Shown in pieces: positions 28,457-31,778 of a stretch of DNA of 64,000 bases. Both the position numbers and the translations under genes were made by a program. The stretch comes from an uncultured Desulfobacteraceae bacterium (GTDB lineage: Bacteria > Desulfobacterota > Desulfobacteria > Desulfobacterales > UBA5852). The notes under the pieces are model-generated. The model was not told the origin of the DNA. It did not search any database and was given only the letters and a program-made list of their open reading frames with translations. The stretch spans positions 1 to 64,000 of the forward strand of contig CAJXSL010000006.1 of the NCBI GenBank assembly GCA_913060875.1, read 5' to 3'. The first letter of the stretch is position 1; every line of letters starts with the position of its first letter.

Positions 28457-30097
28457 TTATTCGGAAAAACCAGGTGGCAGACCGGATCCGGCATTGTCTT
28501 CAGTCGAGGGAAACGGTGTCGGCTGGGCCTCAGAGCGCCTTATTGGGGGACGCGGTTCCAGGGTCAAACCGAGGGAACGACCTTTTTCCTGATAAGACCC
28601 GGTTGTCAGCCGCAACGCCTCCATGGGTTCCACCACTATCGCGGGCTGCGCTTCGACCGGGCAATGATGCTCGCAGAAGCCGCAGCCGCTGCAGCGGTTT
28701 TCGATAACGAAGGGCACCGGCGCTTTGATCTCCGGCAGTTTTTTCAGGACAATGGCGTCATAGGGGCAGACCTCGTCACAGACCAGGCACTTGCGGTCGA
28801 GTTCCCAGGCCAGACATTTGTTCCGCAGGATAATGGCGGTGCCGACTTTGGCCCAGATGCGCTCGCGCTGGGGGAGGGGGCGGATGGCTTCGGTGGGGCA
28901 GATTTGACCGCAGGCATTGCACTGGGGATCGCATGGGCCCATCTGGGGGGCGATGACAGGCGTCAGTAATCCCGTCAGTCCGGTTTCCATGCCCAGAGGT
29001 TGAAGGGTGTTGGTGGGGCAGGCGGCCAGGCAGGCGCCGCAGCGATAACAGCGCCGCAGGAAGTCGTCCTCCGGCAGCGCCCCCGGCGGCCGGATGAGAT
29101 TGGGGGGAATGATGCGACGGGTGCCGGTATCCCCGAGAAGATGGCGGGCACCGGAAAGGGTCAGCGCGGCGGTTCCCACCCCGCAGACACCGGCTGTCAG
29201 AAGACCGCGTCGATATTGGGAAAACGCCGGCAACCGCGGCGCCTTGTCCATGCGCCGGGTGGAGAAGGCAACCGCCTGGGTCGGGCAAATGCGTCGGCAG
29301 GTTTGGCAGACAATGCACTCGTGGTGCAAGGTGAATCGGGGATCGTCGCCAATGGCCCGGGCGGGGCAGGCGCGGGCACAGAGGCCGCAGTCGACGCAGT
29401 CTTCCGTCACCTGGCGGCGGAGGAACGGACGCCGGGCAAACAGTGCCATCATGGCGCCAGCCGGGCAAAGATAGCGGCACCAGAAGCGTGGTTGCCACAA
29501 ACTACCGGCCAGGATGAGCAGCATCAGAAACAAGGTCAGCCCCTGCCACTCGAATCGCGGCAGGGGCAGTTGCAGGTAAAATAGCCCGGTGAGGTCGAAC
29601 CGGTTGGCCAGGGGTGCGGCGGCCTGGAGCAGCAGATCGGCGATCTGCTGGAAAAGAGGCAAAACGATTATGGCAAAAAAACGCGAAACCAGAGGGATCG
29701 GTGCCACCAGGAAGGCCAGTGAGAGGCCAAGAAGTGCGGCAGTCAGACTGAAGACCAGCAGCCCGTACTTGAAGCGCCGCCAAAGGGGAGGGCATTTTTC
29801 AGGAATGTCGGCCGATCGGTGGAGACAGGCATCGATGCCGTCGATGGTGGTGCCCAGGGGGCAGAGGTAGCCGCAGAAAAAGCGTCCCAGTACAACGGTC
29901 GCCATCAGGACGGCCAGGGCGGCGAAGAAACCGCCTATCCAAATGCGGGCGCTCAGTCCGGTGAGAAGGGCGGCGGCGGGGTCGAGTCGCAGGAAAAGGT
30001 CTTGGGGCAGCCATCCGGCGAAGCGGAAAGCGGCGCCGGCCAGCAGCAGCAAGAAAAGGGCCAGGCCGCCAACCTGAACTGTGCGCTGCAGGGTCAT
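28457..30097 (-). CDS. NapH-NapG-like fused membrane polyferredoxin
   Basis: A 546-residue membrane Fe-S protein that fuses two proteins usually separate. Residues 1-280 are NapH-like: about five membrane helices, CGYLCPLG at 75-82 and CRYLCPAG at 207-214, then two ferredoxin clusters (C234/237/240/244 and C261/264/267/271). Residues 295-320 hold RRGLLTAGVCGVGTAALTLS, a Tat-like or membrane crossing segment. Residues 335-500 are NapG-like with IRPPGALPEDDFLRRCYRCGAC and about four 4Fe-4S sites ending at CSGCGFCEHHCP. NapH/NapG pass electrons from quinol to periplasmic oxidoreductases. The start overlaps the DUF362 stop (TGATG). No catalytic subunit is adjacent, so acceptor and direction are unknown. 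Confidence 0.82.
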   Translation of the reverse strand: MTLQRTVQVGGLALFLLLLAGAAFRFAGWLPQDLFLRLDPAAALLTGLSARIWIGGFFAALAVLMATVVLGRFFCGYLCPLGTTIDGIDACLHRSADIPEKCPPLWRRFKYGLLVFSLTAALLGLSLAFLVAPIPLVSRFFAIIVLPLFQQIADLLLQAAAPLANRFDLTGLFYLQLPLPRFEWQGLTLFLMLLILAGSLWQPRFWCRYLCPAGAMMALFARRPFLRRQVTEDCVDCGLCARACPARAIGDDPRFTLHHECIVCQTCRRICPTQAVAFSTRRMDKAPRLPAFSQYRRGLLTAGVCGVGTAALTLSGARHLLGDTGTRRIIPPNLIRPPGALPEDDFLRRCYRCGACLAACPTNTLQPLGMETGLTGLLTPVIAPQMGPCDPQCNACGQICPTEAIRPLPQRERIWAKVGTAIILRNKCLAWELDRKCLVCDEVCPYDAIVLKKLPEIKAPVPFVIENRCSGCGFCEHHCPVEAQPAIVVEPMEALRLTTGSYQEKGRSLGLTLEPRPPIRRSEAQPTPFPSTEDNAGSGLPPGFSE

Positions 30098-31011
30098 CAG
30101 ACCTGGATTTGCTGCCGGCGGAGGTTTTCCACATCCATGCGGCCCAGACCACGTTCGTGCGCGATACGGATATGCTTGACGTTGCGGGGTTTCAGCTTCC
30201 GGCCGTACCATTCGAACATGGCCACGGCCTGGGCGTCGGCGGCCACCATGTCCCGGGAGGCGATAATCGTGTCGCGTTTGAGCACATGGCCCGGACCGCC
30301 GGGGCCGTTCGTGCTCAGCACGCGCGAACCATCCACAACGATCAAATCCGGCTTGAGCAGCGAGGCCAGATCGACGATGGACTCGTGGAGGTCGAAACGG
30401 CTGTGCATGATGCCGCGATTCCAGATGAGCCCCATCATGCCCTTCATGGACAGGCTGACACCGGCGCTCGAATGGGATTTGGCCACCGGGGCGGCAATCA
30501 GCACGTCCGCCTCCAGGACTTCCCCCATCACTTCGGTTTCCCGCATTTGACGGCCGTCCGGAATGCCCGTGGATTCGAAGAAGCGGCTGCGGGAAACGGC
30601 CTGGACAATGTCGTCGCCATGGACTTCACAGGCTTTTTGAACCCCCTCGATACAGCGCTCCTCGCGGCGCAGGGTGTGGTCCAGAACCCGAATGCGTTGG
30701 GCCCCGGCTTCCTTGCACAGGCCCACGAGTTCGCGCACCACATCGGGATGAGTGTCGGTGGCATCTTCCGGGCCGCCGGCAAAGCTCATATTGGGTTTGA
30801 TGATCACCTTTTGACCGGGTTTGACAAACCGTCCCATGCCTCCCAGGAGATCCACGGCCGCACGGGTGGCGGCGGTGCGATCCCCTGTGGCCAGAGCAAT
30901 ATCCGGCGTCTGGCTGGCGCCGGCCAGCCGGGGCAGCCGGATGCCGAAGCCTATGGCACTCGCCCAGAGGATAATGCGGGCATTGTGTTTGATAAAGCTG
31001 CGACGGTTCAT
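30097..31011 (-). CDS. Tat-exported DUF362 protein
   Basis: A 304-residue DUF362 protein. Residues 2-8 are the twin-arginine motif NRRSFIK followed by a hydrophobic stretch, so it should be exported folded by Tat. The domain carries KPNMSF, DTHPDVVRELV and the late KDLIVVDGSRV-type stretch (LLKPDLIVVDG). DUF362 proteins often occur with 4Fe-4S ferredoxins but have no proven activity. There is no CxxC cluster motif here, unlike some members. It overlaps the NapH-NapG gene by one base, so the two are translationally linked. The start is set by the Tat signal. Confidence 0.83.
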   Translation of the reverse strand: MNRRSFIKHNARIILWASAIGFGIRLPRLAGASQTPDIALATGDRTAATRAAVDLLGGMGRFVKPGQKVIIKPNMSFAGGPEDATDTHPDVVRELVGLCKEAGAQRIRVLDHTLRREERCIEGVQKACEVHGDDIVQAVSRSRFFESTGIPDGRQMRETEVMGEVLEADVLIAAPVAKSHSSAGVSLSMKGMMGLIWNRGIMHSRFDLHESIVDLASLLKPDLIVVDGSRVLSTNGPGGPGHVLKRDTIIASRDMVAADAQAVAMFEWYGRKLKPRNVKHIRIAHERGLGRMDVENLRRQQIQV

Positions 31012-31391
31012 GGGCGTGCCTGGCCATGACGTCGGGTTCAATGCAAAGGGGCGGCCGGGGGAAGATGGCATGGGTCACCTCTCTTTAAGGGGGGGACGTT
31101 CAGGGCACCGTCGTGGGAGGGTGCGAACGTCTAAACTTATTGATAGGAATGATTATCAAAAATGGGAAATCCCTGCAACCGGTAATCCCAAAAGCAGGAA
31201 ATGCCTATTTGTTACCTAATGTCCGTCCATAAATCGTAGATTTTGGTTCTGGCAAGGCCCGAGCGACTTTTAAACCGGAGGAATAGCGCGCTATTGCGAA
31301 AATTGAAAACGAGCGAGAACGCCGCCAGGGGCCGAAAGATGCCATTTAGGGATGGGCACTACCTGATAATCGTCCCCGGACGGCACGCATC
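31012..31391. other. Control region upstream of the DUF362 gene
   Basis: This 380-bp stretch holds no supported gene. It contains the Fur-like palindrome at 31140-31159 and a perfect 14-bp palindrome (AATAGCGCGCTATT) at 31282-31295. Downstream of the minus-strand lipoprotein gene no terminator is evident. Confidence 0.5.
31140..31159. promoter_or_regulatory. Fur-box-like palindrome
   Basis: TTGATA (31140-31145) and TATCAA (31154-31159) form an inverted repeat around GGAATGAT. The right half, ATGATTATC, closely fits the Fur consensus, with about 12 of 19 positions matching overall. Read on the minus strand it includes GATAAT, a good -10, so a bound repressor would block the DUF362 promoter. 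Iron control is inferred. Confidence 0.4.
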
Positions 31392-31778
31392 TCAAAGATT
31401 CTTGGCGCGAATGGCGACCGCGGTGACCGAGCGCACATCGTTCTGCTGATTGACCCCGACACTGTATTGGGGGGTATCCAACTGGGTCGTAAATTTTTCT
31501 TCCAGCACGATGGCGTTGGCCCCATGGGAGGCCGCCTCTTTCTGCATAAGACCCAGCAGTTCCGACCAGGGGGTATTGAAGTCGCCGTCAGCCGAGACCC
31601 AACCGATTTCGGTGTAATCACCTTCGCTGGGATAGGCTTTCAATATTTTGACCGAACCCGCGTGGGGGGGGTATGAATCCCCGGTGGGCGTGAAGCGTAC
31701 CGTGGCGCAACCGGCGATCATCAGGATGGCAATCACCAGCACAATAACGATGCTAAAGCGGCTATGGGGCATGCTCAT
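31392..31778 (-). CDS. Small lipoprotein
   Basis: A 128-residue lipoprotein. The signal MSMPHSRFSIVIVLVIAILM ends in the lipobox IAGC with the lipidated Cys at residue 24. The mature part (residues 24-128) is compact and repeats the phrase of small RcsF/YbjQ-like folds (GANAIVLEEKF; VTAVAIRAK), so an alpha/beta sandwich is plausible. GAAGGAGATCTCC precedes the ATG. No specific family can be named. It is monocistronic between two divergent regions. Confidence 0.68.
   Translation of the reverse strand: MSMPHSRFSIVIVLVIAILMIAGCATVRFTPTGDSYPPHAGSVKILKAYPSEGDYTEIGWVSADGDFNTPWSELLGLMQKEAASHGANAIVLEEKFTTQLDTPQYSVGVNQQNDVRSVTAVAIRAKNL

Follow-up and report, generated by a model that had tools for sequence, protein, structure and literature searches.

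A polytopic polyferredoxin (PFD) from a deltaproteobacterium was described by Tooke et al. in 2017 (PMC5449189), who named it a NapH-NapG fusion. This protein (Q1NSB0, from delta proteobacterium MLMS-1), which has homologues in Chloroflexi, contains five helices, the last of them preceded by a twin arginine, and carries seven 4Fe-4S clusters, three on the cytoplasmic side and four on the outer side; it is inserted by Sec and Tat together, and reporters showed that its translocation depends on Tat. DUF362 does not appear in that paper, and a literature search largely limited to papers outside subscription found none that describes a DUF362-PFD module. The DUF362 domain has been placed with the LarA domain (Lar_N) in one Pfam clan, CL0471 (PMC11770544). 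For LarA1, the literature gives His174 as a catalytic base, Lys184 as the anchor of the cofactor and His200 as the nickel ligand. LarC is required for the nickel-pincer cofactor.

The window analysed here, a stretch of 64,000 nucleotides from an uncultured Desulfobacteraceae bacterium, encodes a fusion of the same type directly behind a gene for a DUF362 protein.

Organisation of the gene pair

Both genes lie on the minus strand, DUF362 first and then the PFD. The sequence agrees with the earlier note, which had placed them here with DUF362 upstream and an overlap of one base; the overlap reads TGATG. The features of the locus are as follows.

28457..30097, minus strand: gene for the NapH-NapG fusion polyferredoxin (PFD), 546 aa, with its ATG at 30097; assigned from 28 conserved cysteines, five hydrophobic helices and NapH and NapG matches below cut-off
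29147..29212, minus strand: twin-arginine motif inside the PFD together with the fifth helix, which is of low hydrophobicity (residues 296-317); assigned from the conservation of the arginines and a layout as in PMC5449189
30097..31011, minus strand: DUF362 gene with a Tat signal; assigned from PF04015 (E 8e-43), a conserved N-terminal RR and a structure model (pLDDT 94.7) with the LarA N-domain fold
30099-30097, minus strand: stop codon of the DUF362 gene, on the last base of which the PFD start begins; read from the sequence
31140..31159, no strand assigned: palindrome TTGATA-N8-TATCAA, containing AATCATTCCT; only its AAYCATTCCT part is kept within the genus

The start of the PFD follows its homologues: the ORF tool gave 584 aa from 30211, and the start common to the homologues is Met39 (MTLQRTVQV), which leaves 546 aa. 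The DUF362 gene starts at the ATG at 31011 (MNRRSFIK) or at an in-frame ATG upstream, at 31071. A small lipoprotein gene (31392-31778) lies upstream of the pair on the same strand; in two relatives (L142 and L146) the end of this gene comes close before DUF362, and the genes may be co-transcribed there.

The fusion is a polyferredoxin of a described family

Alignment of the PFD with 50 relatives gave 28 conserved cysteines, equal to seven 4Fe-4S sites. Two CxxxCP sites (C75/C79 and C207/C211) and a double ferredoxin (C234-C271) are followed by four further cluster sites (C350-C479), and the hydropathy profile shows five helices, the fifth of which (hydrophobic at 299-317) stands directly behind RR296-297 and is less hydrophobic than the first three. 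The second Arg of this motif was present in all 50 relatives and the first in 48 of them. The sequence does contain an RR-bearing hydrophobic segment between the NapH and NapG parts, as had been claimed. Pfam matches consisted of repeated Fer4 domains and Fer4_5, and the NCBIfam models for NapH (ORF residues 228-322, E 7e-20) and NapG (ORF residues 333-544, E 4e-25) both matched, although at 71 and 88 bits they fall below the curated cut-offs of 234 and 269. Together with the order of the cluster motifs, these matches, including that to NapG in the C-terminal part, confirm the earlier proposal of a NapH-NapG fusion, the anatomy of which had been described correctly. The structure model of the PFD is confident (pLDDT 90); searched against known structures it returned only short ferredoxin-type matches, none with E < 0.001.

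Because it has the same defining features, the window fusion is a member of the PFD family of Tooke et al., and the architecture is not new, having been published in 2017 (PMC5449189). By analogy with the MLMS-1 homologue, for which it was demonstrated, Tat-dependent translocation is predicted for the C-terminal part of the window protein.

Association of the polyferredoxin with DUF362

In a survey of 297 genomes of the phylum, the PFD was found in 130 (E < 1e-50) and DUF362 in at least 162 (E < 1e-30). A DUF362 gene stood just upstream on the same strand at no fewer than 111 of the 139 PFD places, with a gap of 150 bp or less in at least 92; these pairing counts are lower bounds, obtained from the best few candidates per genome and with DUF362 sought among the matches listed. 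Among the best 50 PFD places, 45 had DUF362 upstream on the same strand. Co-occurrence of the two genes is thus far beyond chance, and the neighbourhoods bear out DUF362 as the partner of the fusion, rare co-occurrence being the opposite of what was found. Some genomes have two full DUF362-PFD pairs, and in a few (G241, G262, G133 and G104) the two genes lie apart. Where relatives in the genome collection matched over their length and had enough sequence upstream, those in SAR324 and Chloroflexi included, DUF362 came directly before the fusion. The pair is common to many sulfate reducers and their relatives.

Clustering of the genes in 56 neighbourhoods gave no recurring third gene. The larger of the further neighbour clusters, as far as inspected, were antisense frames of both genes or signal-transduction genes, and no NapA-type catalytic subunit adjoins the pair in the window, in agreement with the description of the pair as self-contained, with no NapA or other catalytic subunit adjacent. 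One SAR324 genome encodes a small FMN_bind protein after the pair (L012:7704-8081), a possible flavin partner of the electron wire proposed below.

Sequence and modelled fold of the DUF362 protein

PF04015 matched the window DUF362 protein with 147 bits against a gathering cut-off of 24, over profile positions 1-199 of 200. When 53 DUF362 proteins were aligned, the N-terminal RR was present in all 48 rows that reach it, and K73, N75, D112, K179, H181, K191, H204, D255 and D260 were invariant (residues are numbered as in the model, in which the Met is residue 2); H181, K191 and H204 make up an invariant His-x9-Lys-x12-His motif. The exported protein has few cysteines, none of them invariant, and is without a cluster-binding cysteine set of its own.

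The AlphaFold model, of 305 residues, is confident (pLDDT 94.7) and matched the LarA N-domain with a Z score of 18.9 over 207 residues (rmsd 2.6). LarA and related racemases scored Z 15-19, against 5.5 or less for unrelated folds, and Foldseek gave an E of 2e-7 for LarA. By sequence the resemblance was weak (probability 22%, pairwise E 0.001) in a profile alignment for which the LarA profile was made with LarA homologues from the window's genome and related genomes. This weak alignment pairs H181 and K191 with the histidine and the lysine of PHxxAGFSGGxK, a LarA motif, but H204, although conserved in DUF362, is not placed on the Ni-binding His of LarA. Most of the LarA structure matches stop at residue 270-274 of the 305 in the model, so a LarA-type C-domain is probably absent from the DUF362 protein. 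A search of PDB sequences with DUF362 produced no convincing chain match.

Four further DUF362 genes are present in the window's genome (L002, L003, L004 and L005), two of them fused to a 2x4Fe-4S ferredoxin and cytosolic; these fusions support the idea that DUF362 domains exchange electrons with such clusters. The Chloroflexi DUF362 proteins (L018, L019, L020 and L021) have a linker rich in Thr and Pro as well as a hydrophobic segment at the C-terminus, features that suggest a tethered protein at the outer face.

A proposed electron wire for DUF362

We propose, with a probability of roughly 0.6, that the PFD serves as a wire conducting electrons across the membrane for a LarA-fold, Tat-exported DUF362 enzyme outside the cytoplasm. 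Helices one to four of the PFD would be inserted by Sec and the fifth by Tat, which would put three 4Fe-4S clusters on the cytoplasmic side and four on the other, a wire spanning the membrane like that of NapH and NapG combined. DUF362 would leave the cytoplasm folded, via Tat, would probably bind a small cofactor or metal at its His-Lys-His site, and would trade electrons with the outer PFD clusters in a two-electron reaction, while the other end of the wire would be the quinone pool or the cytoplasm. The proposal builds on the gene anatomy, conservation, co-localisation, export signals and cluster count observed here and on a modelled fold. Physical contact between the two proteins, electron flow and its direction, use of the quinone pool, and catalysis by DUF362 with a cofactor and a substrate are inferred. 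The twin arginines conserved in both proteins count in favour of such a membrane wire. Against it count the lack of a cluster-binding cysteine set in the exported protein, the weak sequence match to LarA with H204 left unplaced, and the few genomes in which the two genes lie apart. The earlier note had electrons crossing the membrane to the DUF362 protein, which is a fair proposal, made stronger by the DUF362-ferredoxin fusions encoded in the same genome; quinol, the donor suggested there, would be a candidate. A bolder version is that the exported DUF362 protein is an oxidoreductase of a new, extracytoplasmic kind, found in roughly two of every five genomes sampled from the phylum: a LarA-fold enzyme that would bear a covalent cofactor at K191/H204 and be driven by a seven-cluster membrane wire in place of an internal hydride shuttle. 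We put this forward only tentatively, with the odds against it.

Alternative explanations

DUF362 might instead be an assembly or maturation factor that guards or inserts the outer clusters of the PFD and is not an enzyme, the PFD serving other periplasmic partners. Such a dedicated chaperone would fit the occurrence of a single DUF362 gene for each PFD and the lack of a third gene, and the cytosolic fusions also put DUF362 domains together with ferredoxins; however, the invariant His, Lys and Asp on a catalytic fold resemble an active site and, to our knowledge, NapG-type proteins elsewhere mature without DUF362, which counts against this explanation, and we consider it unlikely. We think it quite improbable that DUF362, like LarA, contains the nickel-pincer nucleotide (NPN) and either forms or oxidises 2-hydroxy acids outside the cytoplasm while the PFD carries the electrons. 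Its attraction lies in the LarA fold, in the conserved His and Lys at LarA positions and in the LarC and LarA homologue encoded in the window's genome, but the Asp and Arg with which LarA contacts its cofactor are apparently replaced in DUF362 by an invariant Lys-x-Asn, and LarC was not found in seven PFD genomes that are at least 95% complete. LarC was present in 109 of 130 PFD-positive and 143 of 167 PFD-negative genomes (Fisher P 0.74), in a comparison of low power given that 252 of the 297 genomes have it. A nickel-pincer cofactor in DUF362 is not supported, because genomes with the fusion encode LarC about as often as those that lack it.

A further explanation is a module that responds to iron through Fur control and acts as a ferric reductase or helps Fe(II) uptake, in a role like that of the FtrD polyferredoxin. 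It stems from the palindrome TTGATA...TATCAA upstream of the pair, which the earlier note had taken as a sign of iron control; the palindrome is indeed present at 31140-31159, but its reading as a Fur operator is not supported by comparison with related operons. The element matches the Fur box modestly, at 11 of 14 positions, as well as was seen in 4 of 300 shuffles, and palindromes with 6-bp arms are expected by chance in an upstream stretch of this size at a mean of 0.8 per shuffle. In alignments of the upstream regions, the AAYCATTCCT block was the only clearly conserved segment in four genus members (L141, L143, L144 and L145); the palindrome arms were not kept among these four, and the block was missing in the close relatives L142 and L146 and in six more distant ones. 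In the four genus members the block (within 31130-31165 in the window) lies approximately 105-140 bp before DUF362, and it may be the binding site of some regulator. No second copy of the palindrome element was found in a pattern scan of the whole genome, the element is unlike the Fur/PerR-like boxes at other places in the genome, and no neighbour recurs around the pair in the 56 neighbourhoods. Despite the partial conservation in the genus, Fur control of the pair was rejected, and this explanation is very improbable. Elsewhere in the genome, a Fur/PerR-like regulator gene (L053:1010-1495) directly follows a CAATAATTATTATCA box and has a gene of ferritin type downstream, both genes being named from their sequences.

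Relation to known systems

A polyferredoxin family whose insertion has been known since 2017 without a role now has a constant genetic partner. This partner is the likely acceptor or donor of its electrons, and the function of both proteins becomes testable. DUF362, an orphan domain with the fold of lactate racemase, would be drawn into electron transfer at the membrane, in sulfate reducers as well as other anaerobes.

The closest described system is the PFD of Tooke et al. (Q1NSB0), which shares with the window protein the fusion itself, the five helices, the seven cluster sites (three ahead of the Tat helix, four behind it) and the RR directly before the fifth helix; that study was concerned with insertion only, and with neither DUF362 nor function. 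The NapGH quinol dehydrogenase has the same order of cluster motifs, the two CxxxCP sites and a Tat-dependent NapG part, whereas the window protein is a single chain, has no nitrate reductase subunit beside it and scores far below the curated NapG and NapH cut-offs. To the LarA superfamily the DUF362 protein is linked by the N-domain fold (Z 18.9) and by a His and a Lys that align with the cofactor site, but it is probably without the C-domain, is Tat-exported and paired with a polyferredoxin, and has no link to LarC. The cytosolic DUF362-ferredoxin fusions likewise join a DUF362 domain to 4Fe-4S clusters; in them, however, the clusters are in the same chain and there is no Tat signal.
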